Source: an uncultured Pseudobutyrivibrio sp. (GTDB taxonomy: Bacteria; Bacillota; Clostridia; Lachnospirales; Lachnospiraceae). Taken from it: a stretch of DNA of 33,588 nucleotides. Both the position numbers and the translations under genes were made by a program. Within the stretch, counting starts at the first letter, position 1, and each line of letters opens with the position of its first letter. The stretch spans positions 1 through 33,588 of the forward strand of contig CAMNPQ010000005.1 of assembly GCA_946548305.1 (NCBI GenBank), in the 5' to 3' direction. Below, piece after piece: positions 2,898 to 31,111 of the stretch. A model generated the notes under the pieces. That model did no database searches. It saw nothing but the letters and a program-made list of their open reading frames with translations, and was not told the origin of the DNA.

Positions 2898-5800
2898 ATG
2901 ACTAGACTGAGTAAACTATTGAAAAAGCTGGTGACTCCTGTTGCATTAATTAGCTTATTTGGTTGTTGTATTTGTGGGGCGGTTTTTGCAAAAGAGAATG
3001 TAGCTCAAAGTGAAAAAGTTCAGATTGGTGGAGGCTATGCCGCATCAAAACAATTAGGGCAGGTGGGATACTCTGCCCAGATTTATGATGCCACAAATGG
3101 TCTGCCCACCTCAGAGGCAAATTATATACTGGCAGCCGAAGATGGCTTCATTTGGATAGGGGGCTACAGCGGTATAATCAGGTATGACGGCAATGAATTT
3201 ACCAGATTTACCAATACCGATGGACTTACCAGTGGAAGAGCTTTGTTTCAGGATTCGAAAAATAGAATCTGGATTGGAACAAACGATAATGGAATAGTTT
3301 ATTTTGATACAGACAGGGGTGCTCACCATTATTCTGTGGCAGATGGTCTGCCTTCATCTTCAATTCGTACCTTTGCCGAGGATGAAAATGGAAATGTTTT
3401 TATAGGAACAACAGAGGGCGCAGCTTACTTTGACAATAGTGGTACTCTGTGCTCTTTTGATGATGAAAGAATCAATACACAAAGAATTCTTAGAATGGTA
3501 TCCGCAAGTGATGGCACTATTTACGGCTACACCAAAACCGGGGATATTTTTCAAATAAATGACTGCGAGCTTTCAAACTATATTGAAGGCAAATCTATAT
3601 CAAATCTGGAAATATCAAATATCTATGCTGATAAAGCAAATCAAGGTAAAGTTTATTTAGGAACAAAAACTGACAAGGTGTATTATGGCACTTTTGGAGA
3701 AAAGCTTTCAGATATGGAAGAAATATCTGTGAGTCCACTGAAAAATGTGAAGTGGGTGGATTATGCCTGTGGCAGAATATGGGTGGCATCAGAAAGTGCA
3801 TTTGGATATTTAGATGAAAAAGGTACTTTCACGCTTGTTGAAAATGTACCAATTAATAATGGCATAGAGATGATGACAGCCGACTATCAGGGAAATATAT
3901 GGATTGCATCTTCAAGACAAGGTGTGATGAAGCTGGTGGTAAACAATTTTTCAGATGTAACGAGAAATGCAGGACTGGAAAGTGAAGTGGTAAACACCAC
4001 CTGCAAACTGAACAATTCTCTTTACGTGGGTACAAATGATGGACTTAGAATACTAAAGAATCTGACAACCCCTGAGGAAAATGAACTCACGGATTATTTG
4101 AAGGGGGCAAAAATACGCTGTATTACAAAGGATGATGAGGACAATCTGTGGCTTTCCACCTTTGACAGCAAGCTGGGCTTGGTGTGTGCCAAAGCCGATG
4201 GAAGAATAATCAATTTTACCACGGCAGAAGGAATGCCAAGCAACGAGGTGAGATGTGCAAAGCAAGCCAGTGATGGAAGAATAATAGCTGGAACTAATGG
4301 AGGCCTGGCAATCATCAAGGATGATGAAGTGGTGGATTCCGTAGACTCCAGTGATGGCATAAAAAACACTGTATTTTTAGATATAGAAGATGGATTGGAT
4401 GGAGAGATATATGCTGCCACTGACGGTGACGGTATGTATGTTATCAAATCAGATTCCATAGAAAGATATGGAAGTGAAGCAGGTCTCACCAGTGATGTTA
4501 TCAACAGAATAAAATGGGATGAAAAAAGAAAGCTGTATTGGATTGTCACATCCAATTCCATTGAGTACATGAAGGATGGGCAAATCACCTGCGTCACCTC
4601 ATTTCCCTATAATAATATAGACAATATTTATTATGATGATAATGATGGGCTTTGGGTGCTGGCATCAAATGGTATTTACACTGTGAAGGTGGAAGAAATG
4701 CTAGAGGATAGGGTGGAAGACTATCAGCTGTATACAATGGCCAACGGACTCACCAGTATGCCTGTTTTATCAGAGTATTCCGATATAGATGCAGAAGGAA
4801 ATTTGTACATATCGGGGATAACCGGAGTATCTGCTGTTAATATCAACAACTATTACACTGGAAGTATGTGGATAAAGACAGGAGTTACTAATATTTTTTG
4901 TGATGATGAAAGCATTATCCCACAAAAGGATGGCACCTATGTGCTTCCTGCAACAAAGGGACGTATCCAAATAGTTCCGGCAGTTTTAGATTATTCCATG
5001 ACAAATCCGCTGATTCATGTATATTTGGAGGGAAGCAACGATAATGGGTATATAGAATACAGAGACAATATCACCTCACTGGAATTTACAGGCTTGAGAT
5101 ACGGCAAATATACTCTCCATGTGCAGGTACTGTCCGCAAATGGTGATGAAATTCTGGTGGATGATTTATACAAAATAAATAAGGAGCCTACCTTTTTTGA
5201 GAGAACTGCTGTCAGAGTGATGCTGGTAATTCTTTTTGCGGTATTTTCTGGTCTTGTGGTATGGCAGTTTATGACTCAAACCGTCATTCGCAGACAATAT
5301 ATGGAAATCGCCCAGGCTAAGGACGAGGCAGAGCGGGCAAACTCGGCAAAATCCAGATTTTTAGCAAATATGTCCCATGAAATAAGAACACCTATAAACA
5401 CTATTATGGGTATGGATGAAATGATTTTGAGGGAGAATCCTGACGGAGTGCCAAAGCCGTATCTAATGTCCGTTATCAACAATGCAATGGATATCATGAC
5501 TGCCTCAGAAACACTACTTGGTCTTATAAATGAAATACTTGATATATCCAAAATTGAATCCGGCAAAATGCATTTAGTGGAGCAGGACTATGAGCCAGAG
5601 GAACAGCTTAGAGCTATTATCACTATGATAAGGGTTAAAAGTGATGAAAAGGAATTGAAATTCGATGTGGATATTGATGAAAATATTCCAAAGAAGCTGT
5701 ACGGAGATGCAGGAAAGATAAAACAAATCACCCTGAACCTTCTGACAAACGCTGTAAAATATACTGAAAAAGGTGGATTTACATTAAAGGTTCAGCAGGA

Positions 5801-7148
5801 AAAAACAGAAAAAGATTATAGCGATATCAGAATATCTGTCAAAGATACAGGAATAGGTGTAAAAAAAGAGGATTTGGACAAGCTTTTTACCGCCTATGAG
5901 AGACTGGATGAGGAAAGAAACAGTGCAATTCAAGGAACAGGATTGGGACTGGATATCTCCAGAAGATTCAGTGAGCTGATGGGTGGAAAGCTCTGGTGTG
6001 AAAGTGAATATGGAAAAGGCTCTGAGTTTATTTTCACGTTCAAACAAAAAATAGTGGATGCCACACCAATAGGAGAGTTCAAGGAGCGTGTGGAGGAGGT
6101 TCCACAAGGCTTTTATGCACCTAAATTCATTGCTCCTGATGCCCATATACTTGTGGTGGACGATACACCAATGAATTTAAACGTAATCAAGGGATTATTA
6201 AAGCCTACAAAGATAGACATCACCACAGCTACAAGCGGAGCGGAATGTCTTGAAAAGGTGAAAGGGCAAAAGTTTCATGTGGTGCTTCTAGACCATCTAA
6301 TGCCAGAGATGGATGGAATCGAGACACTTCAAAAGCTCAGGGAAATAGACAAAGAAGTGCCTGTATATGCCCTTACAGCCAACACATCACCTGATGCAGA
6401 AAAATACTACAAGGAAAAAGGCTTTAGTGGATATCTGGCAAAGCCTATTGACACCAGTGTCATGGAGTCTACCTTGATGGAACACATAAAGGATGTGATT
6501 ATAGAACGCCCAGCAGAAGCCATGGATGAAATCGAGCCTACAGAGCTGTCTGAGGATATGCAGTGGCTAAAGGATGTGGAAGGCTTGGATTTAGATTTGG
6601 GCATTAAAAATTCAGGCGGAATAACTGTTTTCACACATAGCATTAAAGACTTCTATGATACTATTGATTTTAATGCAGACACAATTGAGGATGCATTTGA
6701 AGGCAAGGACTACAAGCTTTACACAGTAAAGGTTCATGCCCTGAAAACCTCAGCGAGAATTGTGGGTGCTACAGCACTTTCAATAGCTTCCGAGCAATTG
6801 GAAAATGCCGGTAAAAATAACGATATTGATTTTATACAGGCAAACACAGCCGCTTTATTAAAAGACTACAGAGCATTTAAGGATAGACTTTCAAAGCTTG
6901 ATACAGGCAAAGACCACGGTGCAAGTGATGCAAGAGAGGATATAACAAAGTCTGATTTAGACAGTGCATACGAAGCTCTAAAGGAACTGGTAGAGCAAAT
7001 GGATTATGATGGAGTGGAGCTGGTAATTTCGCAGGTAAATGATTATAAATTGCCAGAGGAAGATGCTGAAAAATTCAAAGAGTTGAAAAGACTATTGCAA
7101 CGGTTTGATTGGGATGCAATGGAAAATATGCTAAGAGAGGAGAATTAA
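2898..7148 (+). CDS. Hybrid two-component sensor with periplasm-type beta-propeller, HisKA, REC and Hpt
   Basis: This 1416-residue protein begins with a signal-peptide-like N terminus (KKLV then a hydrophobic core, ending VFA-KE near residue 31). Residues of about 55-650 form repeated propeller blades of the two-component-regulator-propeller type (repeats such as GLPTSEANYI, DGLTSGRALFQD and GNIWIASSRQG). A Y_Y_Y-like Ig domain follows (GLRYGKYTLHVQV), then one membrane helix near 770-795. The cytoplasmic part has HisKA (His 827 in NMSHEIRTPIN), HATPase (NLLTNAVKY, GTGLGL), a receiver domain (Asp 1132 in LLDHLMPEMDG) and Hpt (His 1280 in VKVHALKTSARIVGA). Such architectures in other bacteria sense extracellular glycans or peptides; the ligand here is not known. 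The gene lies 8 bp after the receiver gene, and its 3' end carries the ribosome site of the next gene, which links it to the export operon. Confidence 0.94.
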   Translation: MTRLSKLLKKLVTPVALISLFGCCICGAVFAKENVAQSEKVQIGGGYAASKQLGQVGYSAQIYDATNGLPTSEANYILAAEDGFIWIGGYSGIIRYDGNEFTRFTNTDGLTSGRALFQDSKNRIWIGTNDNGIVYFDTDRGAHHYSVADGLPSSSIRTFAEDENGNVFIGTTEGAAYFDNSGTLCSFDDERINTQRILRMVSASDGTIYGYTKTGDIFQINDCELSNYIEGKSISNLEISNIYADKANQGKVYLGTKTDKVYYGTFGEKLSDMEEISVSPLKNVKWVDYACGRIWVASESAFGYLDEKGTFTLVENVPINNGIEMMTADYQGNIWIASSRQGVMKLVVNNFSDVTRNAGLESEVVNTTCKLNNSLYVGTNDGLRILKNLTTPEENELTDYLKGAKIRCITKDDEDNLWLSTFDSKLGLVCAKADGRIINFTTAEGMPSNEVRCAKQASDGRIIAGTNGGLAIIKDDEVVDSVDSSDGIKNTVFLDIEDGLDGEIYAATDGDGMYVIKSDSIERYGSEAGLTSDVINRIKWDEKRKLYWIVTSNSIEYMKDGQITCVTSFPYNNIDNIYYDDNDGLWVLASNGIYTVKVEEMLEDRVEDYQLYTMANGLTSMPVLSEYSDIDAEGNLYISGITGVSAVNINNYYTGSMWIKTGVTNIFCDDESIIPQKDGTYVLPATKGRIQIVPAVLDYSMTNPLIHVYLEGSNDNGYIEYRDNITSLEFTGLRYGKYTLHVQVLSANGDEILVDDLYKINKEPTFFERTAVRVMLVILFAVFSGLVVWQFMTQTVIRRQYMEIAQAKDEAERANSAKSRFLANMSHEIRTPINTIMGMDEMILRENPDGVPKPYLMSVINNAMDIMTASETLLGLINEILDISKIESGKMHLVEQDYEPEEQLRAIITMIRVKSDEKELKFDVDIDENIPKKLYGDAGKIKQITLNLLTNAVKYTEKGGFTLKVQQEKTEKDYSDIRISVKDTGIGVKKEDLDKLFTAYERLDEERNSAIQGTGLGLDISRRFSELMGGKLWCESEYGKGSEFIFTFKQKIVDATPIGEFKERVEEVPQGFYAPKFIAPDAHILVVDDTPMNLNVIKGLLKPTKIDITTATSGAECLEKVKGQKFHVVLLDHLMPEMDGIETLQKLREIDKEVPVYALTANTSPDAEKYYKEKGFSGYLAKPIDTSVMESTLMEHIKDVIIERPAEAMDEIEPTELSEDMQWLKDVEGLDLDLGIKNSGGITVFTHSIKDFYDTIDFNADTIEDAFEGKDYKLYTVKVHALKTSARIVGATALSIASEQLENAGKNNDIDFIQANTAALLKDYRAFKDRLSKLDTGKDHGASDAREDITKSDLDSAYEALKELVEQMDYDGVELVISQVNDYKLPEEDAEKFKELKRLLQRFDWDAMENMLREEN

Positions 7149-7150
7149 TA

Positions 7151-7573
7151 TTGGACAACAAACTTTTTAGAAAAAAAACAATTGACAGAATATCGTCTCC
7201 AGAGCAGCTGACAGATTATTTAAAAGTGACTAACCCGGGAATATGGCTGATTCTTATTGCAGTGGTTTTGATTCTTGTGGGTTTTTTGGCGTGGGCTTCC
7301 GTAGGAACATTAACTACCACTGTGGATGCAACAGCCCAGATTGATAGTAAAGCTGCATATATAGTAGTCACAGGAAATAACAGCATAAAGGATGTGCAGA
7401 CAGGTATGAAGGTGATTGTGGACACTGAGGAGTATGTGATTTCAAATGTAGACACAGATGATTTAGGCAGAACAGTTGCTCATGCTACCATAGATTTGCC
7501 AGATGGAAAGTACAATTGCAAAATCGTGGTTGAGGAGATTCATCCCATTGTATTTCTGATGGAAGGTAGGTGA
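7151..7573 (+). CDS. Short HlyD-like membrane protein of an NHLM/NHLP-type export system
   Basis: The ORF track starts at 7109 inside the kinase gene. I prefer the TTG at 7151, because GAGAGGAG lies just upstream and the kinase stops at 7148. The resulting protein of about 140 residues has a polar N terminus, one transmembrane helix near residues 32-53 (IWLILIAVVLILVGFL) and a small beta-rich domain of about 85 residues with a lipoyl/barrel feel (GMKVIVDTEEYVISNV). The family usually seen next to such ABC genes is the roughly 400-residue HlyD-type 'NHLP secretion protein'; this one lacks the long coiled-coil hairpin. It lies 4 bp before the peptidase-ABC gene, so an accessory role in export is likely. 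The family assignment rests mainly on context and topology. Confidence 0.72.
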   Translation: MDNKLFRKKTIDRISSPEQLTDYLKVTNPGIWLILIAVVLILVGFLAWASVGTLTTTVDATAQIDSKAAYIVVTGNNSIKDVQTGMKVIVDTEEYVISNVDTDDLGRTVAHATIDLPDGKYNCKIVVEEIHPIVFLMEGR

Positions 7574-7577
7574 AATC

Positions 7578-9755
7578 ATGGAGAAAAAAATTCCACCATC
7601 CCTGACTCACGGTGTGGCAAAGGTACCTGTAATATTGCAGCTTGAAGCTTTAGAATGTGGTGCGGCATGCCTTGCTATGGTGATGGCTTACTATGGTAAA
7701 TGGGTCCCTCTAGAACAGGTAAGAGCCGATTGCGGTGTGTCCCGTGATGGCTCAAATGCAAAAAATATATTTAAAGCAGCAGAAAATTATGGCTTTGAAA
7801 CCTCAGCCTATAAAATGGATGCAGAGGAATTATTAACGGAAGGCGTATTTCCTTGCATAATTCATTGGAACATGAATCACTTTGTGGTTTTAAATGGTTT
7901 TAAAGGAAAAAAGGCATATATCAACGATCCTGCAAAGGGTCTAATTGTTGTAAACTGGGATATATTTGACGTTTCCTTTACTGGTATAGTAATAATGCCA
8001 GTGCCATCCAAAGAATTTAAACAGACAGGCAAACCAAAAAGCACTCTGGCCTTTGCAAAAAAGAGACTGGCAGGAGTGGGGGCTACCACAGTATTTGTTA
8101 TGATAGCCACTGCAATTGCCTATATGTTTGGAATACTGGATTCCATTACATCCAAAATATTTATAGACAGGCTGCTTACTGGAATTAATAGGGATTGGGT
8201 TCGCCCATTTATATATATACTGGTGGTTTTTGCCCTTTTGAACATAATAGTGCAGTGGGTAAACACCATATATTCTCTTAAAATCAATGGAAAAATGGCA
8301 GCGGTGGGAAGTTGCTCATATATGTGGAAGCTTTTAAAGCTTCCCATGGAATTTTATTCCCAGAGACTGGCTGGAGATATACAGGTAAGACTGGGGCTGA
8401 ACACAAGTATTGCAGCCACTTTGGTAAATACCTTTGGTCCACTTCTTATAAATTCTGTGATGATGGTTTTTTATCTGCTGCTGATGATTAAACAAAGCAG
8501 CCTGCTTACTGTCATAGGTCTTGCAGCAGTACTGATTAATATCTTTTTAGGAAAGGTTATTTCTGATAAAAGACTTGCTATTGCAAGAGTGCAGATGAGA
8601 GACGTGGGAAAGCTGGAAGCATCTACAGTAAGCGGAATTGATATGATAGAAACTATTAAAGCCAGTGGAGCGGAGAATGGTTTCTTTGAAAAGTGGTCAG
8701 GAATACAGGCATCAGTTAATTCTTCAAGTGTGAATTCTGCTCTTAACGAAGCCTGGCTTGGAACTATTCCAGCATTTTTTAGCAGCTTGGCAAACTATGT
8801 AGTACTTATCCTGGGTGCTTATCTTGTAATCAAAGGTGACTTCACTTTAGGTTCAGTATTGATGTTTCAGGGATTTTTAACATCCTTCATAGGTCCTGCC
8901 AACAGCCTTATATCAGTTGGACAGACTATTTTGGAGATGCGCACCAATATGGAGCGAGTAGAGGATGTTATGGAATATCCAGATGATGTGGGACTCACAG
9001 AAAATTTAGATGCTTCCACCCAAAACATTTCAAAGCTAAAGGGTGGAGTGGAGATTAATAATCTCACATTTGGTTATTCAAGGCTGGGAGAGCCTGTTTT
9101 AAAGAATTTCAATCTGTCTATAAAGCCCGGAGAAAGGGTAGCTATAGTAGGTGCCACTGGCTGTGGAAAATCCACTTTGTCAAAGCTGATATCGGGACTG
9201 TATCAGCCTTGGGAAGGGGAGATTTTATTTGATGGAAAGCCACGCAGCGCATATCCAAGAGAAGTGATGACAGGCTCAGTTGCTGTGGTGGATCAGGACA
9301 TCATTGTGTTTGAGGATACCATTGCAAACAACATCAAAATGTGGGATGAGTCAATCAAAGATTTTGAAATGATTTTAGCCGCAAGGGATGCACAGATACA
9401 TGATGACATATTAAAAATGCCTGATGGCTACAAACATAAACTGGTATCAGGGGGCAAGGATTTGTCTGGAGGCCAAAGGCAGCGTATGGAAATAGCCCGC
9501 GTGCTAGCCCAGGATCCCATTATTATAATTTTAGATGAAGCCACAAGTGCTCTTGATGCCAAGACTGAATATGATGTGGTGGAGGCTATCAAGGCTAGAG
9601 GCATCACATGCATAGTTATTGCCCATAGACTTTCCACAATTCGTGATTGCGATAAAATCATAGTTCTTGATGATGGAGAGATAGCAGAGCAGGGTACACA
9701 TGAGACCTTGCTGGCAGCTGGCGGTATTTACGAACAATTGATAGCTAATGAGTGA
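7578..9755 (+). CDS. C39 peptidase-containing ABC exporter (NHLM/NHLP-type bacteriocin processing and export)
   Basis: This is a 725-residue peptidase-containing ABC transporter. Residues 1-140 are a C39 protease domain with catalytic Cys 27 (LECGAACLAM), His 101 (NMNHFVVL) and Asp 117 (NDPAKG), which cleaves double-glycine leaders. A six-helix exporter membrane domain occupies about 165-460. The C-terminal nucleotide-binding domain has Walker A GATGCGKST (about 525-533), signature LSGGQRQRMEIARV, Walker B IIILDEATSALD and the His switch in IAHRLST. Length and domain order match the NHLP-family peptidase/permease/ATPase subunit. The start has a GGTAGGTGAAATC ribosome region 4 bp after the HlyD-like gene. 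The likely substrates are the two GG-leader peptides encoded at 12038 and 12304. The enzyme class is certain; the substrate is inferred from proximity. Confidence 0.95.
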   Translation: MEKKIPPSLTHGVAKVPVILQLEALECGAACLAMVMAYYGKWVPLEQVRADCGVSRDGSNAKNIFKAAENYGFETSAYKMDAEELLTEGVFPCIIHWNMNHFVVLNGFKGKKAYINDPAKGLIVVNWDIFDVSFTGIVIMPVPSKEFKQTGKPKSTLAFAKKRLAGVGATTVFVMIATAIAYMFGILDSITSKIFIDRLLTGINRDWVRPFIYILVVFALLNIIVQWVNTIYSLKINGKMAAVGSCSYMWKLLKLPMEFYSQRLAGDIQVRLGLNTSIAATLVNTFGPLLINSVMMVFYLLLMIKQSSLLTVIGLAAVLINIFLGKVISDKRLAIARVQMRDVGKLEASTVSGIDMIETIKASGAENGFFEKWSGIQASVNSSSVNSALNEAWLGTIPAFFSSLANYVVLILGAYLVIKGDFTLGSVLMFQGFLTSFIGPANSLISVGQTILEMRTNMERVEDVMEYPDDVGLTENLDASTQNISKLKGGVEINNLTFGYSRLGEPVLKNFNLSIKPGERVAIVGATGCGKSTLSKLISGLYQPWEGEILFDGKPRSAYPREVMTGSVAVVDQDIIVFEDTIANNIKMWDESIKDFEMILAARDAQIHDDILKMPDGYKHKLVSGGKDLSGGQRQRMEIARVLAQDPIIIILDEATSALDAKTEYDVVEAIKARGITCIVIAHRLSTIRDCDKIIVLDDGEIAEQGTHETLLAAGGIYEQLIANE

Positions 9756-9762
9756 GGGTAAA

Positions 9763-11949
9763 ATGAGTAACTGGTTTGAAGACCAAATTGAAGAGAGAAG
9801 AAATGCAGACAGGATTGCCCTGGAGGATTCCTTTAATCAAATAGCATCAGTGGTGCTGGGAAAGAATCTTGCAACTAAGCTGGAGGATGAAAGAACAGTC
9901 GCAAAGGATGCTTTGGAAGAGATTTTAAAGTTCTATCATCTAAAGCCTGTAGATATACCGGAATATATAGAAAGTGCTGAAGACCAGATGGACTATGTCT
10001 TAAGGCACCATGGCATGATGAAAAGAACTGTGGAGCTGACAGGAAAATGGTATAACGATGGCTATGGTCCTATGCTGGGAATTTTTAAGGATACGGGGTT
10101 GCCTGTGGCTATTTTGCCATACAATTTACGTGGCTATTACTATGTGGATAAGGTCACAGGTAAAAAGATAAAGTTCAATAAAAAAACGGCAAAGCTTATT
10201 GAAAAAGAAGCCTTTTTCTTCTATAAGCCTATGCCTTTGAAGGAACTGGGCATCCCGGATTTACTTATATTTCTAAAGGATTGCCTGAGTGTAGGTGATA
10301 TATTTTTGCTGGTGGTTGCCATTGCCTTCGCCAGCTTTGTTGGAATTCTCATTCCAAAGATAACAGTGGCTATAACAGGTCCAGTACTTGATAGCAAAAA
10401 TGTGTCAGCCCTTGCGGGAGCTGCCATATTTTTATTCTGTATATCACTGTCACAGCAGATTATTTCAAGCATAGGCAGTTTACTGGGAGAGCGTATAGAG
10501 ATAAAGACTTCTCTAGCCATAGAATCATCAATGATGATGAGAGTGCTGGCACTTCCAGTCAGCTTTCATAGAGCATACAGCCCAGGAGAACTGAAATCCC
10601 GTTCAATGGCAGTAAATGATTTGTGTAGGCTGCTACAGAATATATTTTTGACAACAGGCTTATCAGCACTGGCATCCCTTGTATACTTTACGCAGATTTT
10701 TGATTTTACACCTGCTTTGATGGGTCCATCAATAATCATCATTCTTATAACAGTGGGATTTTCCATTGCTGTAATACTGCTTGAGGTATCAATAAGCAAA
10801 AAAATAAAGGAGCACACGGCCAAAGAATCAGGATTTTCTTATTCTTTAATCACAGGAATACAGAAGATAAAACTGGCAGGTGCTGAAAAAAGAATTTTTG
10901 CAAAGTGGTTGAGCATATACGCAGAGGGGGCAAAGCTAGAATATAATCCACCTACATTTTTAAAGCTGAGTAATGTGATAACCACAGCTATATCTTTGAT
11001 TTCGACAATAGTATTATATTATCTTGCAATAAAAAATAATCTTTCCAGCTCTGCATATTTTGCGTTTATTGCATCATATGGAGTGGTGATGGGGGCATTT
11101 TCATCAGTTTCAGCTGTGGCTTCATCTGCATCTCAAATCAAGCCAATACTGGAGCTGGCTGAGCCATTTTTGAAGACAGTGCCTGAAACCTCAGAGGACA
11201 AGGAAATTGTAACAGGGCTTACAGGAAACGTAGAAATAGCTCATGTATCATTTAGATACAGCGAGAAGACTCCTTATGTGCTGAGAGACATTTCCCTGAA
11301 AATAAAAGCAGGGGATTATGTGGCTATAGTGGGAAGGACAGGCTGTGGCAAGTCCACATTAGTCCGTCTGCTATTAGGTTTTGAAAAGCCTGAAAGTGGA
11401 ACTATCTACTATGATGGGACAGATGTTTCAGAGCTGGATTTAGGCTCTTTGAGAAAGAATATAGGAACTGTGACTCAGGATGGAAAACTGTTCCAGGGAG
11501 ATATTTATTCCAATATAGTAATAACTGACCCACGTCTAAGTATGGATGCTGCCTGGGAGGCAGCAGAAACTGCTGGTATAGCTGAGGATATTAGAAGAAT
11601 GCCAATGGGCATGTTTACTGTCATTTCAGAGGGACAGGGTGGCATATCAGGCGGTCAAAAGCAACGACTTATGATTGCAAGAGCTGTAGCTCCAAAGCCA
11701 AAGCTTTTGATACTTGATGAGGCAACCTCGGCACTGGATAATGTGACTCAAAAACAGGTGTCGGATGCTCTTGACAATATGGGCTGTACACGTATAGTAG
11801 TGGCCCATAGGCTTTCTACCATAAAAAACTGCAGCAGAATAATTGTAATTGATGATGGACAAATCATAGAGGACGGCAATTATGATGAGCTGATAGCAAA
11901 GAATGGATACTTTGCCGAGCTTGTAGCTCGTCAGAGACTTGACGCATAG
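9763..11949 (+). CDS. Second ABC exporter subunit of NHLM/NHLP-type system (no peptidase domain)
   Basis: This ABC exporter subunit has about 728 residues. I place the start at ATG 9763, because GAGGG lies just upstream; the track start at 9748, overlapping the previous stop, has no ribosome site. The first 170 residues are a soluble N-terminal region without C39 motifs, as in the NHLP permease/ATPase partner subunit (it contains RGYYYVDKVTGKK). A transmembrane exporter domain follows at about 180-460, then a nucleotide-binding domain with Walker A GRTGCGKST, signature ISGGQKQRLMIARA, Walker B LLILDEATSALD and His switch VAHRLST. It probably pairs with the peptidase-ABC protein as a heteromeric exporter. 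It is the last large gene before the small peptide genes, which have their own promoter 10-90 bp downstream. Confidence 0.92.
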   Translation: MSNWFEDQIEERRNADRIALEDSFNQIASVVLGKNLATKLEDERTVAKDALEEILKFYHLKPVDIPEYIESAEDQMDYVLRHHGMMKRTVELTGKWYNDGYGPMLGIFKDTGLPVAILPYNLRGYYYVDKVTGKKIKFNKKTAKLIEKEAFFFYKPMPLKELGIPDLLIFLKDCLSVGDIFLLVVAIAFASFVGILIPKITVAITGPVLDSKNVSALAGAAIFLFCISLSQQIISSIGSLLGERIEIKTSLAIESSMMMRVLALPVSFHRAYSPGELKSRSMAVNDLCRLLQNIFLTTGLSALASLVYFTQIFDFTPALMGPSIIIILITVGFSIAVILLEVSISKKIKEHTAKESGFSYSLITGIQKIKLAGAEKRIFAKWLSIYAEGAKLEYNPPTFLKLSNVITTAISLISTIVLYYLAIKNNLSSSAYFAFIASYGVVMGAFSSVSAVASSASQIKPILELAEPFLKTVPETSEDKEIVTGLTGNVEIAHVSFRYSEKTPYVLRDISLKIKAGDYVAIVGRTGCGKSTLVRLLLGFEKPESGTIYYDGTDVSELDLGSLRKNIGTVTQDGKLFQGDIYSNIVITDPRLSMDAAWEAAETAGIAEDIRRMPMGMFTVISEGQGGISGGQKQRLMIARAVAPKPKLLILDEATSALDNVTQKQVSDALDNMGCTRIVVAHRLSTIKNCSRIIVIDDGQIIEDGNYDELIAKNGYFAELVARQRLDA

Positions 11950-11992: not shown

Positions 11993-12037
11993 ATCATCAA
12001 CAAAAGGAATATATTAGAAAATTCGGAGGTATGAATA

Positions 12038-12271
12038 ATGAAGGTAGAAATTAAGGATTTGGAAAATGTAGCAGGTGGCGTTAGCACAGGTGGTGATGTG
12101 GTTGCCTTCTGCAAGACCTGCGGTCAGAAGCTTAAATATTTAGGACAGACTCATATTGAAGGTGGCAACACAGGACAATACGAGTGTGAAAACACAAACT
12201 ACAACGGAACAGGGAAAAACTGTCCTGAGTACCACGTAATCAAAGACAATAACGAGGTCAGCTTTAAGTAA
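12038..12271 (+). CDS. Double-glycine leader peptide with four-cysteine core (putative secreted peptide 1)
   Basis: This 77-residue precursor has the ribosome site CGGAGG 8 nt before its ATG. The first 14 residues, MKVEIKDLENVAGG, fit a double-glycine leader: hydrophobic residues fall at -4 (V), -7 (L) and -12 (V) from the GG cut. The mature part would be about 63 residues, polar, with four cysteines at 25, 28, 50 and 62 in a CxxC...C...C arrangement (FCKTCG, YECEN, NCPEYH), resembling a small metal-binding or disulfide-linked fold. It lacks the Gly-rich hydrophobic stretch of class II bacteriocins and shows no lanthipeptide or Nif11/nitrile-hydratase leader. It lies 88 bp after the exporter and 32 bp before a second peptide. 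Export by the C39 ABC transporter is likely; the activity (bacteriocin, signal or metal scavenger) is unknown. Confidence 0.82.
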   Translation: MKVEIKDLENVAGGVSTGGDVVAFCKTCGQKLKYLGQTHIEGGNTGQYECENTNYNGTGKNCPEYHVIKDNNEVSFK

Positions 12272-12303
12272 TTTAGGCTGTGAGGGCTATGTGGAGGCGA
12301 GGT

Positions 12304-12492
12304 ATGAATATGGAAGAATTAGAATTTGATGAGCTTGGAAAAGTTGACGGTGGCAGTCAGGTATTAGGAAGCAGCGCAGGCGTGGAAGCAAGCCACTTTT
12401 GCCCAAAGTGCCAAAAGGTTACTCAGTTTATTGTATTTTCTGGAGCCAGAGGCAAATGTAAAGAGTGCGGCACTATGGTTTATGATTTGTAA
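12304..12492 (+). CDS. Double-glycine leader peptide with zinc-ribbon-like core (putative secreted peptide 2)
   Basis: The track starts this ORF at GTG 12280, but GGAGGCGAGG at 12293-12302 sits correctly for ATG 12304, giving a 62-residue precursor. The leader MNMEELEFDELGKVDGG again places hydrophobic residues at -4 (V), -7 (L) and -12 (L) before the GG cleavage site. The predicted 45-residue mature peptide contains two clean CxxC knuckles, CPKC (33-36) and CKEC (52-55), spaced as in a treble-clef or zinc-ribbon fold, which is uncommon for an exported bacteriocin. It is co-oriented with peptide 1 and followed by a hairpin at 12513. The peptides share their leader type but little core sequence beyond the cysteines. 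Function is unknown. Confidence 0.8.
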   Translation: MNMEELEFDELGKVDGGSQVLGSSAGVEASHFCPKCQKVTQFIVFSGARGKCKECGTMVYDL

Positions 12493-12512: not shown

Positions 12513-12567
12513 TCTAGGGTCATGTGTAATGTGATTGATTTTCAGTTGCATTACATATGACCCTAGA
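12513..12567 (+). terminator. Near-perfect long hairpin after the peptide genes, probable terminator
   Basis: Arms of 19 nt (TCTAGGGTCATGTGTAATG at 12513-12531 and its complement at 12549-12567) match except for one G/A position, with a 17-nt loop. A T-rich but broken stretch (TGTTTGTTAGTTATTTT) follows. It most likely ends the peptide operon, possibly acting in both directions; a repeat-element origin is also possible. Confidence 0.6.
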
Positions 12568-21842: not shown

Positions 21843-22280
21843 ATGAAAAAAGTTTTTGAATGTGAAGCTACGGTTGAAAATTTGACTAACGCATCAGCAT
21901 TTGCAGAGGCTGAACTTGAAGAGCTAGGTTGTGGCATGAGGCAAATGATGCAGCTGTCAGTTGCTTTAGAAGAGATTTATGTAAACATTGCCCATTATGC
22001 CTATGCAAAACTTGATGATAATGGCAAGCCGATTCCAAATACAGGGGTTGGTCCTATGAAGCTGACTGTGGATTCTGACGAGGAAAATGTGTATCTCATT
22101 TTTGAAGATGAGGGGATGCCATATAATCCTTTGGAAAAGGAAGACCCGGATGTGACCCTTGCAGCAGAGGATAGAGAAATAGGTGGACTTGGAATTTTTA
22201 TGGTCAAAAAGAGTATGGATGATGTATTATATGAATATAAGGATAATAAAAACATCCTAACATTAGTGAAAAAACTGTGA
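21843..22280 (+). CDS. RsbW/SpoIIAB-like anti-sigma serine kinase (HATPase_c_2)
   Basis: This 145-residue GHKL ATPase of the anti-sigma-factor class has its N box in LSVALEEIYVNIAHYAY (Glu 44, Asn 48), the Mg/adenine-binding Asp in IFEDEGMPYNPL and the G box GGLGIFMVKKSMD. Members bind a sigma factor or another client and phosphorylate a STAS antagonist on serine. The matching STAS protein is encoded two genes downstream at 23566, which supports a partner switch. No sigma factor or PP2C phosphatase gene is in the window, so the controlled client is unknown. The start follows AAGGAGAAATTAA, and transcription probably begins at the direct-repeat promoter at 21774. Confidence 0.9.
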   Translation: MKKVFECEATVENLTNASAFAEAELEELGCGMRQMMQLSVALEEIYVNIAHYAYAKLDDNGKPIPNTGVGPMKLTVDSDEENVYLIFEDEGMPYNPLEKEDPDVTLAAEDREIGGLGIFMVKKSMDDVLYEYKDNKNILTLVKKL

Positions 22281-22348
22281 ATCACTAATAAAATAAAACA
22301 AAAACAGTTATACTAAACAAAGACAAACACGTCAGGAAGGGGAATATA

Positions 22349-23563
22349 ATGCAATCAGAACATGTAAAAATTGGAACATTGCAGGAAAACCTTGACAGAG
22401 TGGAGGATATTCTTGAGGATTATCTTTTCCGACTGGACATTAAAGGTAAGGATGCAATTAGATTTAATTTATTAACAGAGGAAGCACTTAGACTGGCAAA
22501 GTCCATTACAAGCGACGAGACAGCAGTAGAGCTATGGTTTGAAGGAAATGCCAGGGTGTCTCACATCTGCCTGATGCTTGAAAGCAAGCTTACACCAAAT
22601 AAGGAAGAGAAATTTATTTCTATTTCATCATCAAAAGAAAACAGTGCCGACCACACATTTTTTGATGACCTGAAGGAATTCTTTATTAAGCCTAGCAAAC
22701 CTACCTGGTCTTTGGCTGAATACGAAGCAGAAGTTATGAAGAAACGCTGTGCTGACAAGTATTCTGAAGAAGCCTGGGGCAATCTGGAGCGTTCTGTGCT
22801 GGCAAATCTGGCAAACGATATTTCTGTTGGAGTAAAGGATAATCATGTTCTTATGATTATCACAAAGGATTTTTCAAAATCCCTTGGTACAATCAATTCA
22901 AACAGACCACTTCAGACATCTAGCCAGATTTTTGTATCTTCAGATGAAGAGTCACTTAAAAAGGCATATGCCAGGGTAGATGGGGTAGTTGATGAGGTGA
23001 AACTCTCAGGCAAAAATGCTCTTAGAGTAAAGCTATTGTTAGAAGAGACAATCGGAATGGTTGAAGAAATGACAGGGGATTTTTCAGCTTTGCTCTGGTT
23101 GGAACAATATAAGGGCGAATGTGCTCTAAAGCTTGTGGGTAACACAAAGATTGACGCAGACAAAAAATATGATATTCTATCATTATCTACTACTGGAGAA
23201 AATGCTTTAGTTCATGGCTTTATGGGCAAATTAAAGGACATGATTGAGACTGGTATTTTAAATTACGAAAGTGTCATGAAGCTTAACCAGGAGTACAACG
23301 GCATCAGCGTAAATTATGCTGGAATGGGTGCTTACAATGATGTGTCCATCGCTACAAACCCTACAGCAATGTCGGGCTTTATGTGGTCAATGGTAGACTA
23401 TCGTAATGGCTTGGATGGCGAGAGAAACACCAATGAGGGCGTAAAGGCAGCTTGGGATGAATTGGAGAAATCTATTGTTGCTAGTATTGCTGATGATGTA
23501 ATAGTTGGTGTTAAAAATAATAAAGTACAAATGACTATGATTTATAAACTTAAGGAGGATTAA
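22349..23563 (+). CDS. 404-residue internally duplicated protein, possible degenerate GHKL-ATPase pair
   Basis: I do not recognise a named family. The protein consists of two homologous halves of about 180-215 residues. The first runs from LQENLDRVEDILEDYL and the second from SLKKAYARVDGVVDEV; both contain an LLTEEA/LLLEET helix and an ELWFEG/LLWLEQ strand, and both close with a matching block, AWGNLERSVLANLANDISVGVK against AWDELEKSIVASIADDVIVGVK, split here by eye. Each half resembles the start of an RsbW-like ATPase (helix with Glu-Glu followed by strands), but the N-box Asn and glycine-rich G box are missing, so ATP binding is doubtful. It lies between an RsbW-like kinase and a STAS protein, only 2 bp before the latter, so it is probably a scaffold or decoy in the same switch. 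The start follows AGGAAGGGGAATATA. Confidence 0.8.
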   Translation: MQSEHVKIGTLQENLDRVEDILEDYLFRLDIKGKDAIRFNLLTEEALRLAKSITSDETAVELWFEGNARVSHICLMLESKLTPNKEEKFISISSSKENSADHTFFDDLKEFFIKPSKPTWSLAEYEAEVMKKRCADKYSEEAWGNLERSVLANLANDISVGVKDNHVLMIITKDFSKSLGTINSNRPLQTSSQIFVSSDEESLKKAYARVDGVVDEVKLSGKNALRVKLLLEETIGMVEEMTGDFSALLWLEQYKGECALKLVGNTKIDADKKYDILSLSTTGENALVHGFMGKLKDMIETGILNYESVMKLNQEYNGISVNYAGMGAYNDVSIATNPTAMSGFMWSMVDYRNGLDGERNTNEGVKAAWDELEKSIVASIADDVIVGVKNNKVQMTMIYKLKED

Positions 23564-24503: not shown

Positions 24504-24663
24504 TGAAGATAAAACAGGCATTGCCCTTGCAAATGGTGATTCACTTTCCTACACTTTCAGCAATGCCCAAGTCCTTCAAAAGATTGCATCTGAAATGAAA
24601 TATGATATTTGGGTGGGGAGAGTGATTGATTATTTAATAAATGTTTGGAGGGAACATAATTGA
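24475..24663 (+). CDS. Small 62-residue ORF at the head of the csm operon, unknown function
   Basis: The ORF starts at ATG 24475 directly after AGGAGGAGGCAA, one of the strongest ribosome sites in the window, which lies inside the end of the upstream gene. It stops at TGA 24661-24663, overlapping the TTG start of csm6. Both junctions suggest that it is translated and coupled to csm6. The product (MLLLQLERINEDKTG..., ending VIDYLINVWREHN) is mixed-charge, has no signal peptide or cysteines, and looks like a short beta hairpin followed by two helices. I recognise no family. It may be a small accessory or regulator of Csm6, or only a translational coupler. Confidence 0.6.
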   Translation: MLLLQLERINEDKTGIALANGDSLSYTFSNAQVLQKIASEMKYDIWVGRVIDYLINVWREHN

Positions 24664-25979
24664 GTAAAACTGTGCTTTTTTCCCCAGTTGGTGGGACCGA
24701 CCCAATTTCGCAAAATAATATACGAGATGGTTCACTTTTGCATATATGCAGATGGTACAAGCCAGACGAGGTATATCTATATATGTCAAAGGAAATGCTG
24801 GATTTTCAAGAGCAAGACGATAGATATAGATTTTGTATACAAAAGCTAGCAGAACAACAATCAAGAGAGATTATTATTAATGAAATAGAACGCTCAGATT
24901 TAATAAATGTACAGGACTATGATTATTATTACAGTGATTTCAGGAGTATAATCGCAGACATTTCAGCTTCATTGTCCAGCGAAGATAAGCTGATATTAAA
25001 TGTATCTTCAGGAACACCTGCGATGAAAAGCGGATTGATTGTACTAGCTACTCTTGGTGAATTTAATTGCAAAACAATACAGGTTGTAACACCAGTACGA
25101 AGAATAAATGAGCATAATCATAAAAACTATGATGTTCAGACACTGTGGGAATTAAATGAAGACAACAATGGGGATTCTGAAAACAGATGCAAAGAAGTTG
25201 TTTGTCCAACCTTGTCAAATATCAAACAGGAAGAAATAATCAAGCGATTACTCAAGGTGTATGACTATCAAGCCGCCTATTTAGCAGCAGAAAGCTTACC
25301 GTCAGAAAAAACAATAAACTATTTGGAACTATTACATGTGGCATATAAACGAATACAGCTTGATAATCAAGGACTAAATGCTTTAGTGAAAAAACATAAT
25401 ATGGAAGGCTTTCCAATAAAAAATGACGGAAGCAGAGAAATATTTGAGTATGCCTTAGCACTGGATATAAAGCGTAAGCGGGGTGAATATGCTGACTTTG
25501 CAAGAGCCATATCACCGCTTATAGTGGCATTATTTAGGGATGTATTATTAAAACAAGAGCAAGTACGCATAGAAGATTATACAAAAAATGAAAATGGTAG
25601 GGAATACTGGGATAGAGGAAAGCTGGCTGGCACAAAGCTAGATGAAATATTTAAAAATAAATGGCCTTATTTTAAATATGATTGGCCTCAATCCTCTCAT
25701 ATTTCACTTTTAACGCAGAAATTGATTACTAATCCTAAGATAGTTGATTTATGTTCAAAGCTAAGATCAGTAGAAGAAGGAGCAAGAAACGTGGCGGCTC
25801 ATCAAATAGTATCTCTTACGGAGGATGGCTTTAAAAAGAAGACTGGGTATTCCCCTGCTGATGTAAGTGGTTTGATTAAGGAATTGTGCAAATATACTAC
25901 ACTTAACATAAAGGATGAGTATTGGAATGCCTATGATGATATGAACAACTACATAATTAAGAAAATAGAGGAGATATGA
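24660..25979 (+). CDS. csm6: Type III-A CRISPR accessory ribonuclease Csm6 (CARF-HEPN)
   Basis: Csm6 is a cyclic-oligoadenylate-activated RNase that degrades transcripts non-specifically once Cas10 signals. The 439-residue protein starts at TTG 24660 (TTGGAGGGAACATAA upstream), overlapping the previous stop. The N-terminal CARF domain has the ligand loops LFSPVGGTDPIS and NVSSGTPAMKSG (residues 114-124). The C-terminal HEPN domain has the catalytic R-x4-H motif in GARNVAAHQIV (Arg 376, His 381). Both functional sites look intact. It is placed first in the operon, ahead of cas6 and cas10, rather than at the end as in staphylococcal and streptococcal loci. The natural activator (cA4 or cA6) cannot be read from the sequence. 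Confidence 0.93.
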   Translation: MSKTVLFSPVGGTDPISQNNIRDGSLLHICRWYKPDEVYLYMSKEMLDFQEQDDRYRFCIQKLAEQQSREIIINEIERSDLINVQDYDYYYSDFRSIIADISASLSSEDKLILNVSSGTPAMKSGLIVLATLGEFNCKTIQVVTPVRRINEHNHKNYDVQTLWELNEDNNGDSENRCKEVVCPTLSNIKQEEIIKRLLKVYDYQAAYLAAESLPSEKTINYLELLHVAYKRIQLDNQGLNALVKKHNMEGFPIKNDGSREIFEYALALDIKRKRGEYADFARAISPLIVALFRDVLLKQEQVRIEDYTKNENGREYWDRGKLAGTKLDEIFKNKWPYFKYDWPQSSHISLLTQKLITNPKIVDLCSKLRSVEEGARNVAAHQIVSLTEDGFKKKTGYSPADVSGLIKELCKYTTLNIKDEYWNAYDDMNNYIIKKIEEI

Positions 25980-25989
25980 TAATCCTAAT

Positions 25990-26757
25990 ATGACAGAGAT
26001 AAACACAAATATATTGGCATCAATAACTATGGAGCTATCAGCAGATGGAATAAACTATAGAAAAGCGTCCGATTTTCAAGGTGTACTTTTTACAAAGATA
26101 GATTCAGAGTATGCCGACTTCCTTCATAAGGAACAGATGCATCCCTACAGTCAATACATTTATCAGGATGAGCACAGATGGTATTGGAAAGTAAGTACAC
26201 TTAATAATGAAGCCTATAAAAGAATAATAGAACCGTTATTAGCACCTGAATTTAATTGTTTTCATATAAATAATGGAGACATTAATGTGGATATTAAAAA
26301 TAAATCTATTGTAACTAAAAGCTATTCAGATTTAATGGAGGACTTCTATGAAAAGCCTGCTGAAAAGAACTTTGATTTGCGGATATTAACACTTACTGCA
26401 TTCAAACAGAGAGGCAGATACAATGTGACACCAGATTTACGGTTGATATTTCAAAATCTTATGATGAAATATAGTATTATTCTTGGAAACGAAAATATGG
26501 AGGATGAGGATACATTAAATCAGATTATAGATGATACTATTGTCTCTAAATATAGGTTAAAAACAGGAATCTTTCCAATTGAGGGACGAAACATTCCTGG
26601 CTTTAACGGAAACCTAAGCCTGAGGCTGTTTGGCTCTGAAACAATGATGCGCTATGTGCGGCTGCTTTTGAAATTTGGAGAATTCTCAGGAGTAGGAATA
26701 AAAACAGGAATGGGAATGGGAGCGATAAAAATAATTGAGGAGGAACCTAGTGACTGA
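25990..26757 (+). CDS. cas6: CRISPR pre-crRNA endoribonuclease Cas6
   Basis: Cas6 cuts the CRISPR transcript inside each repeat to give crRNAs with an 8-nt 5' tag. The 255-residue RAMP protein has candidate catalytic histidines at 46 and 51 in LHKEQMHPYSQYI, a family-typical early position. Its C-terminal glycine-rich loop is GEFSGVGIKTGMGMGAI. The start ATG lies 10 bp after csm6 with no well-placed ribosome site (GAGGAG is 16 nt away), so translation may depend on coupling. Its 3' end overlaps cas10 by 8 bp. Its substrate is expected to be the GAGA-loop hairpin in the repeats at 32302 onward. Confidence 0.93.
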   Translation: MTEINTNILASITMELSADGINYRKASDFQGVLFTKIDSEYADFLHKEQMHPYSQYIYQDEHRWYWKVSTLNNEAYKRIIEPLLAPEFNCFHINNGDINVDIKNKSIVTKSYSDLMEDFYEKPAEKNFDLRILTLTAFKQRGRYNVTPDLRLIFQNLMMKYSIILGNENMEDEDTLNQIIDDTIVSKYRLKTGIFPIEGRNIPGFNGNLSLRLFGSETMMRYVRLLLKFGEFSGVGIKTGMGMGAIKIIEEEPSD

Positions 26758-29110
26758 TAAAGAATTGAAGGTGACAATTGGGGGCTTACTACATGATATA
26801 GGTAAGGTTATCTATCGTGAGGGAAATGAAAAAAGAACTCATAGTCAAATTGGATTTGAATATTTAAAAGAGAATATTGGAATTGAAGATAGGGATATTC
26901 TAGAATGCGTAAAATATCATCATGGGAAAGCACTAAGCAATAGTAGCATATCAGATGATTCCTTGGCTTATGTGGTATATATTGCTGACAATATAGCATC
27001 ATCTGTTGACAGGCGTGAAAAAATGTCAGATGAATCAGGATTTGAACTGCACACTCCACTGCAGCCTGTATTCAACCTTTTGAATGAAAATAATGGAAAA
27101 GATTACTATTCAACTAATAAATTAAATGTTGAAGAGAGCATAAATTTTCCCTCTTCAGAGAAAGGTACTTTTGCAAAAGAAGAGTACGCTAAAATAGTGA
27201 ATAACCTTACAGATAATCTGAAGGGAATCGATTATTCCTCTGAATATGTAAACTCGCTACTGGAAGTTATGGAAGCAAATCTTTCATTTGTGCCATCTTC
27301 CACATCAGCAGCTGAAGTTCCAGATATATCACTATATGATCATTTAAAACTGACAGCTGCTATTTCAAGTGCCATAGTAAAATATTTAGAGGATGAAGAA
27401 AGCGATTATAAGAGCACACTATTTAAAGCTGAGAAAGCATTTTATGAAAAAGAAGCATTTTTGATTGCAAGTATGGATATCTCTGGAATTCAAAAATTTA
27501 TATATACCATACAAACTAAAAATGCATTGAAGACACTTAGAGCAAGGTCATTTTATTTAGAGATTGTGATGGAGCATATTATTGACGAACTCCTGAATAC
27601 ACTAGGGCTTTCTAGATGCAATCTATTGTATGTTGGTGGCGGACATTGCTATTTATTACTTCCTAATACCCAACAATGTAAGACTGAGTTCGACGAGTTT
27701 ATCAAAAGGACTAATCAATGGTTTCTGGAAAAATTCCAAACAGAGCTTTATATAGCAGGTGGGTATGGCTCATGCTCAGCAAATAGTCTAAAAAATATTC
27801 CAAGTGGAAGCTATGAAGATATTTTTAAAAGAGTATCTTCAATGATATCAGAGCATAAAATCTGCAGATATGATGCGGATGTAATAAAGGCATTAAATAG
27901 CATAAAGCATGATGATTATACAAGGGAATGTTCTGTTTGTAAAAGAATAGCTGTTGGGGATGATAATGAACTTTGCCCGATTTGTTCAGGCTTTGAAAAG
28001 CTTTCAGCAAAGGTTTTGTATGCAGATTTCTTCACTGTTGAAAGGGATGAAAATAAGGACTTACTTCCTTTACCAGGAGGCTATAGTCTTTCGGTTGATA
28101 CAGATGAAACCCTAAAGAAAAAGATGGAGACTAGTGAAAATTTTGTGAGAGCCTATTGTAAGAATCGTTCTTATACAGGAAAACACATAGCTACAAAACT
28201 ATGGGTTGGCAGCTATTCCGCAAAAGCTACCTTTGAAGAATTTAGTAATACTGCTACAGGTATAAATCGTATAGGCGTTTTACGAGCAGATGTAGACAAT
28301 CTTGGAAATGCATTTGTTTCAGGCTTCCGTAATAAAGCCAATGACAATAGGTACATGACAATTTCCCGTACAGCAACACTGTCAAGGCAGCTTTCACTAT
28401 TCTTTAAATTACATATTAACAAGCTTTTAGAAAATCCTGAGTTTTCCCTTGATGGTAAAACAAAGGAGAAAAGAAATATCACAATAGTATATTCAGGAGG
28501 AGATGATGTATTTGTTGTTGGCTCTTGGAACGAAGTGATTGAATTTGCAGTAGACCTTAGTAATGCATTCAAAAAATATACAGAAAATACCCTTACCATT
28601 TCTGCAGGAATTGGAGTATACACAGATAACTATCCAATCAGTGTTATTGCCTCGGAAGTTGAACAGATGGAGGATGAATCCAAGGATTTGTCAGGCAAAG
28701 ATGCTATTACCTTGCTAGAGGACGGTGAATTTCATAATGAAGCTGGACAAAGTATTAGTGATGGCACATATAAGTGGCAGGAGTTTGAAACTGGCGTAAT
28801 AGCCGAAAAACTTAAAACGATTTCCACATACATGGATGCCACAGATAATCCGCATGGCAATGGTCTGTTGTACAGGATTTTAGAACTAATCAGAAATCAA
28901 AGTGAAAGAATAAACCTTGCTAGATTTGTCTATTTATTAGCTCGCCTGGAGCCAGATAGTCATTCTGATAATTACAAGGAAATAAAAGCGAAGTTTGACG
29001 TTTTTTCCAAAGACATGATTAGGTGGATAAACAATGAAAGGGATAGGCGACACTTGAAGACAGCAATTGAATTGTATGTATATATGCACAGAGGGGAGGA
29101 AACAAATTGA
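26750..29110 (+). CDS. cas10: Cas10/Csm1, large subunit of the type III-A effector
   Basis: Cas10 carries ssDNase and cyclic-oligoadenylate synthase activities in the Csm complex. The track begins at TTG 26735, but AGGAGG at 26738-26743 places the start at GTG 26750 (786 residues), overlapping the cas6 stop. The N-terminal HD domain has His 15-Asp 16 (GGLLHDIGKVIYR) and KYHHGK. A first palm-like domain (SMDISGIQKFIYTIQ) and a zinc ribbon (Cys 394/397 and 409/412) follow, then the second palm with catalytic GGDD at 583-586 (IVYSGGDDVFVVG). Both active sites look intact, so DNA cleavage and second-messenger synthesis are expected, with Csm6 as receiver of the signal. The csm2 start overlaps its stop by 4 nt. 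Confidence 0.96.
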   Translation: MTDKELKVTIGGLLHDIGKVIYREGNEKRTHSQIGFEYLKENIGIEDRDILECVKYHHGKALSNSSISDDSLAYVVYIADNIASSVDRREKMSDESGFELHTPLQPVFNLLNENNGKDYYSTNKLNVEESINFPSSEKGTFAKEEYAKIVNNLTDNLKGIDYSSEYVNSLLEVMEANLSFVPSSTSAAEVPDISLYDHLKLTAAISSAIVKYLEDEESDYKSTLFKAEKAFYEKEAFLIASMDISGIQKFIYTIQTKNALKTLRARSFYLEIVMEHIIDELLNTLGLSRCNLLYVGGGHCYLLLPNTQQCKTEFDEFIKRTNQWFLEKFQTELYIAGGYGSCSANSLKNIPSGSYEDIFKRVSSMISEHKICRYDADVIKALNSIKHDDYTRECSVCKRIAVGDDNELCPICSGFEKLSAKVLYADFFTVERDENKDLLPLPGGYSLSVDTDETLKKKMETSENFVRAYCKNRSYTGKHIATKLWVGSYSAKATFEEFSNTATGINRIGVLRADVDNLGNAFVSGFRNKANDNRYMTISRTATLSRQLSLFFKLHINKLLENPEFSLDGKTKEKRNITIVYSGGDDVFVVGSWNEVIEFAVDLSNAFKKYTENTLTISAGIGVYTDNYPISVIASEVEQMEDESKDLSGKDAITLLEDGEFHNEAGQSISDGTYKWQEFETGVIAEKLKTISTYMDATDNPHGNGLLYRILELIRNQSERINLARFVYLLARLEPDSHSDNYKEIKAKFDVFSKDMIRWINNERDRRHLKTAIELYVYMHRGEETN

Positions 29111-29502
29111 AAACTATAAATGATAGCAATTATGTAGATACTGCGGAAGCAGTTATAAAACACTTAAAGTCAAAGGTAAATACTAAAACAAATAAACCGA
29201 TTCCAATGGTCTCTACATCAAAAATCAGAAACCTTTTGGCTATGTCAGCGGACATTTACAACAATGTTTTGCTTCTGCAGGACGATACATTAAATGATGA
29301 ACTTGTTGGGCGCATAGAGTATTTAAGAATGAGATTTGTGTATGAAAGTGGCAGAGATCAAAGCGTAAAAGATTTTGTTTTAGAGGGAAAAATATTAGAT
29401 ATATTAAAGGAGATATCTGGTAGCAAGGCAAATTATATTTTGTTTAATCACTATATGGAAGCATTGATAGCTTATCATAAATTTTATGGTGGAAATGATT
29501 AG
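29107..29502 (+). CDS. csm2: Type III-A effector small subunit Csm2
   Basis: This 131-residue mostly helical protein matches Csm2 in length, position and content, including YVDTAEAVIKHL, a STSKIRNLLAMSADIYNNV block, the Arg-rich helix GRIEYLRMRFVYESGR and the C-terminal NHYMEALIAYHKFYGG. Csm2 subunits line the belly of the complex along the crRNA-target duplex. The start is TTG at 29107 in the overlap TTGA with the cas10 stop, with GAGGGGAGGAAACAAA upstream. csm3 follows 11 bp downstream. Confidence 0.92.
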   Translation: MKTINDSNYVDTAEAVIKHLKSKVNTKTNKPIPMVSTSKIRNLLAMSADIYNNVLLLQDDTLNDELVGRIEYLRMRFVYESGRDQSVKDFVLEGKILDILKEISGSKANYILFNHYMEALIAYHKFYGGND

Positions 29503-29513
29503 GAGGCTGGGAA

Positions 29514-30173: not shown

Positions 30174-30186
30174 GGTAGGGCATGGT

Positions 30187-31107: not shown

Positions 31108-31111
31108 ATTT

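Follow-up and report, generated by a model that had tools for sequence, protein, structure and literature searches.

Two double-glycine peptides with zinc-ribbon-like cores as probable cargo of an adjacent NHLM-type C39 exporter

Two short neighbouring genes, pep1 and pep2, probably (at a probability of about 0.7) encode precursors that are cleaved and exported as Zn(Cys)4 mini-proteins of 45-63 residues, acting as substrates of the NHLM-type PCAT exporter encoded beside them. The window, meaning the whole analysed stretch of 33,588 nucleotides, is contig C5 of a 2.6-Mb genome that is 78% complete and has its closest exporter relatives in Pseudobutyrivibrio. From the left, genes for a hybrid kinase, a receiver protein and a propeller hybrid kinase (2898-7148) are followed by those for a truncated HlyD-like protein, a C39 peptidase-ABC protein (ABC1), a second ABC protein (ABC2), pep1 and pep2, and to the right of pep2 lie glmS and rml-type sugar genes, named by translation. 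The features of the locus are:

7149-7573, plus strand: truncated HlyD-like accessory protein, about 140 aa (partial TIGR03794 match, E 4e-8)
7578-9755, plus strand: NHLM/NHLP-type peptidase-permease-ATPase (C39 PCAT, ABC1; TIGR03796, 878 bits; Peptidase_C39, E 5e-34)
9748-11949, plus strand: partner permease-ATPase without C39 domain (ABC2; TIGR03797, 671 bits)
12025-12029, plus strand: Shine-Dalgarno sequence GGAGG of pep1, 8 nt 5' of ATG 12038
12038-12079, plus strand: double-glycine leader of pep1, MKVEIKDLENVAGG (V-12, L-7, V-4, GG)
12080-12271, plus strand: core of pep1, 63 aa, CxxC...C-x11-C zinc-ribbon-like domain (invariant Cys; AlphaFold)
12293-12297, plus strand: Shine-Dalgarno sequence GGAGG of pep2, 6 nt 5' of ATG 12304
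12304-12354, plus strand: double-glycine leader of pep2, MNMEELEFDELGKVDGG (L-12, L-7, V-4, GG; homologue starts agree)
12355-12492, plus strand: core of pep2, 45 aa, CPKC...CKEC zinc-ribbon-like domain (invariant Cys; AlphaFold)
12513-12567, plus strand: near-perfect palindromic hairpin of 26 pairs 3' of pep2 (predicted -38.8 kcal/mol, z -9.9)

The start of the HlyD-like gene near 7149 was placed from the length of its homologues; the listed ORF begins at 7109 and overlaps the upstream kinase. The hairpin is present as a single copy in the genome and lacks a clean T tract, and it probably marks the end of the transcription unit. Further to the right (21843-23563), the window contains an HATPase_c_2 (RsbW-like) gene and a 404-aa gene of no named family, homologues of which are located directly 3' of pep2 in L004 and near pep1/pep2 and a STAS gene in L089 and L090 (L numbers denote loci, G numbers genomes). 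A type III CRISPR-Cas-like module (24660-32212) with Csm6-like, Cas6-like, Cas10-like and Csm2-5-like genes was recognised by translations only.

Sequence comparison shows that pep1 and pep2 are genuine genes whose products have classical double-glycine leaders and conserved four-cysteine cores, and it likewise establishes their association with the exporter. The initial annotation had proposed two double-glycine peptides with hydrophobic residues at -4, -7 and -12, and this description proved correct. Pep1 spans 12038-12271 (77 aa); the start of pep2 had to be moved from GTG 12280 to the conserved ATG 12304, with the ORF ending at 12492. Positions -12/-7/-4 are occupied by V/L/V in pep1 and by L/L/V in pep2 and are hydrophobic in 15/15 homologues compared, with Leu always at -7, and all 15 display the leader pattern of C39 substrates (hydrophobic -12, Leu -7, Val/Ala -4, GG). 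The core of pep1 begins with VSTGG and carries CKTC at core residues 11-14 and single cysteines at residues 36 and 48 (C-x11-C), and that of pep2 begins with SQVLGSS, followed by CPKC...CKEC. Leader and all four cysteines are retained in ten of ten pep1 homologues and five of five pep2 homologues. Invariant in the ten pep1 homologues are L-7, V-4 and GG of the leader and, within the core, the four cysteines, GG.TG and one Val; the conservation picture is similar across the five pep2 homologues. The second cysteine pair of pep1 is C-x11-C in the clade of the window and C-x4-C in more distant relatives, a difference of seven inserted residues between the third and fourth ligands. Where dS was measurable, dN/dS among relatives was 0.05-0.31 and mostly <0.2. 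With a 12-residue profile trained on these leaders, true leaders score about 18-36 bits and no score above 18 bits occurred among about 1000 shuffled ORFs, which argues against a chance origin of the leaders.

When pep1 was used as a single sequence against 200 genomes of the family, only pep1 itself was matched, owing to the sampling of about one genome per genus and the patchiness of the family. Beyond the known members of the genus, core-only profiles run over the order and the class gave weak matches to other zinc ribbons and one real pep2 relative. In L134, from another genus, a divergent pep2 relative has a longer leader/N-terminus ending in AA in place of GG; it lies near another GG peptide, and its genome encodes an NHLM-type exporter of 58% identity elsewhere. 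Two leaderless 60-aa proteins (L096, L098) are weakly similar to the pep1 core (E about 0.001) and are possible intracellular relatives. Neither peptide reached a curated NCBIfam family, and neither matched the NHLP (TIGR03793) or Nif11 (PF07862/TIGR03798) leader domain up to E 10. Tests for a phage origin of the cores gave no support.

By its sequence, the exporter next to pep1 and pep2 is of the three-gene NHLM/NHLP type and not a generic C39 system; the earlier assignment as a C39 exporter was right and had missed this more exact identity. ABC1 scores 878 bits with TIGR03796, above the curated cut-off of 853.3, and possesses the C39 catalytic residues Q21, C27, H101 and D117. For ABC2, TIGR03797 is the best family by far, at 671 bits just below the cut-off of 709.4. 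The HlyD-like protein matches TIGR03794 only in part (32.5 bits, cut-off 156.2) and falls short of the full-length family; short homologues of it, mostly of 138-165 aa, adjoin the exporter in 67/81 loci, and the truncation is seen at almost every related locus.

A pep1 profile search over relatives gave matches in five genomes of the same genus, that of the window included. These are exactly the five of 29 genus genomes that encode an orthologous exporter (at least 70% identity), which was found in no others; the hypergeometric p for this co-occurrence is 8e-6, a value that ignores kinship, and G217 and G224 look closely related, so that the independent co-occurrences number fewer than five. 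In these two genomes the contig that carries the peptide pair is not the one that carries the exporter, and no other GG peptide was found beside the orthologous exporter. Elsewhere, the pair lies 5' of the exporter (L003), or pep1 precedes and pep2 follows it (L004). The genus-wide co-occurrence lends support, at the level of sequence, to the earlier proposal of an unusual exported class of zinc-ribbon-like cores tied to a C39 exporter; homologues without a GG leader, of cytoplasmic type or unlinked to an exporter would have spoken against it, and instead the leaders were kept and the link held across the genus. In three genomes a 250-aa lipoprotein of no named family is encoded directly 3' of pep2 (L089:3426-4178 and L091:2305-3057 are examples). 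As a pep2-specific immunity partner it was rejected, since it has matches in 18/29 genus genomes, also in those without the peptides.

As to the nature of the cores, the initial annotation had left a choice between zinc ribbon and disulfide-linked mini-protein, and the present data favour the former. AlphaFold predicted a three-stranded ribbon for the core of pep2 (core pLDDT about 84-91) and a beta-rich core with beta strands for pep1 (about 77-85), with both leaders disordered, in models that rest on shallow alignments of 5 (pep2) and 10 (pep1) sequences. Foldseek searches of the PDB returned no significant fold match for either peptide, the weak matches of pep2 being mostly to ribosomal zinc-ribbon proteins. 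Sequence searches of the PDB yielded weak or spurious matches only; adiponectin, the only low-E match, was obtained for pep1 and looks spurious. The single match in Pfam was a borderline zinc finger for pep2; with zf-FPG_IleRS the 60-aa pep2 scored 21.5 bits (versus 21.3) and the longer reading 20.9 bits. In L032, C2H2 and C2HC cores carry the same leaders, and a further C2H2 core has a Nif11-type leader. Because related cores use C2H2/C2HC ligands and the predicted folds are beta-ribbons, sequences and models together favour zinc binding over disulfide formation by pep1 and pep2.

A survey of exporter neighbourhoods for GG-leader peptides revealed a recurrence of zinc cargo that the initial annotation had missed. 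Among 80 exporter loci gathered with ABC1, leader scores were bimodal, with 59 short-leader substrates at or above the cut-off of 18 bits, in addition to others with Nif11-type leaders. Zinc-ribbon or zinc-finger cores are present in 26 of the 59, in 17 loci, compared with 62 of 1687 leaderless short ORFs, most of which are not genes, so that the odds ratio for enrichment is inflated; the share of zinc cores is nevertheless striking in its own right. By eye, the zinc cores fall into at least ten unrelated sequence families (among them pep1, pep2, the L005/L011 type, several in L032 and L048, those of L039, L041 and L046, and chimeras). On the exporter tree, from which six rows of the wrong ABC gene were left out, the zinc label changes at least ten times, which suggests repeated gain and loss of zinc cargo; the flanks of the loci are limited and absences of such cargo are accordingly weak. 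The best explanation is that zinc-ribbon and zinc-finger domains with double-glycine or Nif11-type leaders are a recurrent cargo of NHLM-type exporters in rumen Clostridia.

Several of these loci are notable in their own right. Chimeric precursors (L032:19595-19936, L049:3095-3478, L074:8210-8518 and L081:15961-16927) consist of a GG leader, a radical-SAM-type Cys-rich block (G-C-x2-TVE-x-GS-x-C) and a C-terminal zinc ribbon, and adjoin a gene of the radical SAM/SPASM family. At L032:13968-17049, about ten different peptides with GG or Nif11 leaders stand in one run, and zinc fingers or ribbons of varied types are frequent among them. A GG leader (32.7 bits) is joined to a Cro/CI helix-turn-helix (HTH_26, best E 5e-10 in the set) at L048:13417-13734, beside an NHLM exporter, where a domain of DNA-binding type thus bears an export tag, and to a LysM domain (best E 3.5e-13 in the set) at L008:11085-11333, downstream of the exporter. 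A second NHLM exporter of the genus (L116:13588-15825 and L117-L119) is accompanied by a radical-SAM-like gene and two Cys/Gly-rich precursors of Nif11 type.

From these data we infer the following route of cleavage and secretion. By analogy with PCAT1 and LahT (PMC6959990, PMC6363468), the C39 domain of ABC1 would recognise L-12/L-7/V-4 of the leader and cut after GG, and the transporter would pass the cores of 63 and 45 residues to the outside of the cell. No modification enzyme would be needed; as the initial annotation had noted, none was found on inspection of the window ORFs, and none is common to the loci of pep1 relatives. A single zinc ion, acquired either before the transport step or after it, would be held by the four cysteines in a small folded beta-ribbon. 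With 6.9 kDa and about 8300 cubic angstroms for pep1 and 4.8 kDa and about 5800 cubic angstroms for pep2, both core volumes are smaller than the cavity of 15,000 cubic angstroms reported for PCAT1 (PMC6959990), which we count in favour of export.

Other explanations of the peptides themselves appear weaker. That the cores are disulfide mini-proteins, or carry some other modification introduced by a distant enzyme, is quite unlikely: a radical SAM/SPASM maturase does occur at some loci with zinc-ribbon cargo (L032, L039, L049, L074 and L081), but in most peptides linked to radical SAM enzymes the Cys block is separate and N-terminal, the pep1 family shares no enzyme, C2H2/C2HC variants exist and the host is an anaerobe. 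It is highly improbable that pep1 and pep2 are zinc ribbons that stay in the cell and have a GG leader only by coincidence or as a vestige. Most zinc ribbons do reside inside cells, and the leaderless proteins of L096 and L098 weakly resemble pep1; however, the leader positions are conserved as strongly as the cysteines, co-occurrence with the exporter is perfect and many unrelated zinc cores bear the same leader.

As exported zinc ribbons, pep1 and pep2 would most likely serve in bacteriocin-like competition between microbes, a use to which by itself we give somewhat less than even odds. This use is favoured by the patchy distribution in the genus, the number of dissimilar cargos found at single loci (L032, L048) and the radical-SAM chimeras (L032, L049, L074, L081), and its main weakness is that no dedicated immunity gene was found. 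The main alternative, which we consider doubtful, is signalling between cells, with the peptides sensed by two-component or partner-switching regulators encoded close to the exporter. Hybrid kinases are indeed encoded 5' of the exporter in the window and in L004, and genes for SpoIIE phosphatase, HATPase_c_2 and STAS proteins recur near related exporters, but regulators are found repeatedly at loci with different cargo as well, the analysis identified no receptor, and a zinc ribbon would be an unusual signal. Moreover, the kinases are missing next to pep1 or the exporter in L089, L114 and L115, and in L090 the only hybrid kinase lies farther away, with several genes in between. Signalling to the propeller kinase, as suggested initially, is not supported: kinase and peptides adjoin each other in the window and L004 but in none of the other pep1 genomes examined, and no specific tie to this kinase was found. 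The partner-switching regulators (SpoIIE phosphatase, HATPase_c_2, STAS) may control expression. A role as secreted metal-capture proteins or metallophores is very unlikely, although each small protein has four conserved thiols and the C2H2/C2HC variants suggest metal ligands: structural zinc ribbons seldom release their metal, such unlike cores would be redundant, and neither zinc uptake genes nor metal regulators were seen around the window genes or as recurrent neighbours at related loci. More tentatively than competition, one may suppose that NHLM exporters are a broad secretion route by which normally intracellular domains with a GG or Nif11 leader are sent out as intercellular effectors, forming an unrecognised class of mini-proteins; the domain types in question are zinc ribbons, C2H2 fingers and, once, a Cro/CI helix-turn-helix.

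C39 exporters serve as guides to bacteriocins and peptide signals. Search pipelines look for hydrophobic helices or for modification enzymes next to the exporter and would miss zinc-ribbon cargo, although nearly half of the short-leader substrates found at loci of this exporter branch are of that kind. Were such peptides secreted, a dense microbial community would contain small extracellular zinc proteins of an unusual class, and precursors that can be tested directly are available in named strains (Pseudobutyrivibrio sp. MD2005, which is the source of L004 and has homologues of both pep1 and pep2, and Lachnospiraceae bacterium NE2001). The exporter type and unmodified C39 cargo are already known; for a class of zinc-ribbon C39 cargo, we found no description in the open-access literature searched.

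Among known systems, class II unmodified bacteriocins (e.g., PF10439) resemble pep1 and pep2 in their short GG leader, unmodified core and dedicated C39 exporter. They differ by an amphipathic or hydrophobic membrane helix and an immunity gene, neither of which was found here, where the core is of a four-Cys metal type; GRAVY values are -0.80 (pep1) and 0.09 (pep2), and a Bacteriocin_IIc match to pep2 (E 0.07) spans only the leader and the start of the core. The maturase that would mark a lanthipeptide or radical-SAM peptide was likewise absent from the inspected window ORFs. In Lachnospiraceae C6A11, one C39 exporter, LahT, serves multiple LahA precursors (PMC6363468); the host family and the many diverse cores behind conserved GG leaders are shared, whereas LahA peptides are precursors of a lanthipeptide cluster with Nif11-type leaders. 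PCAT1 of Clostridium thermocellum, with its CtA substrate of a 24-residue leader and a 66-residue cargo recognised via L-7/L-12 (PMC6959990), is similarly a Gram-positive C39 PCAT with the same recognition positions, but it is homodimeric without a partner ABC protein, and zinc is not mentioned for its cargo in that paper. The NHLM/NHLP export system, defined by TIGR03794/03796/03797 (Haft 2010, PMC2887384), differs from the present case in that the HlyD-like protein is here cut to about 140 aa, the cargo is zinc-ribbon-like, and the window peptides are devoid of NHLP or Nif11 leader domains and of a modification enzyme. Shared with it are the three-gene exporter (C39 peptidase-ABC, partner ABC and HlyD-like protein), the GG leaders and a mixed cargo that includes Nif11-type leaders.
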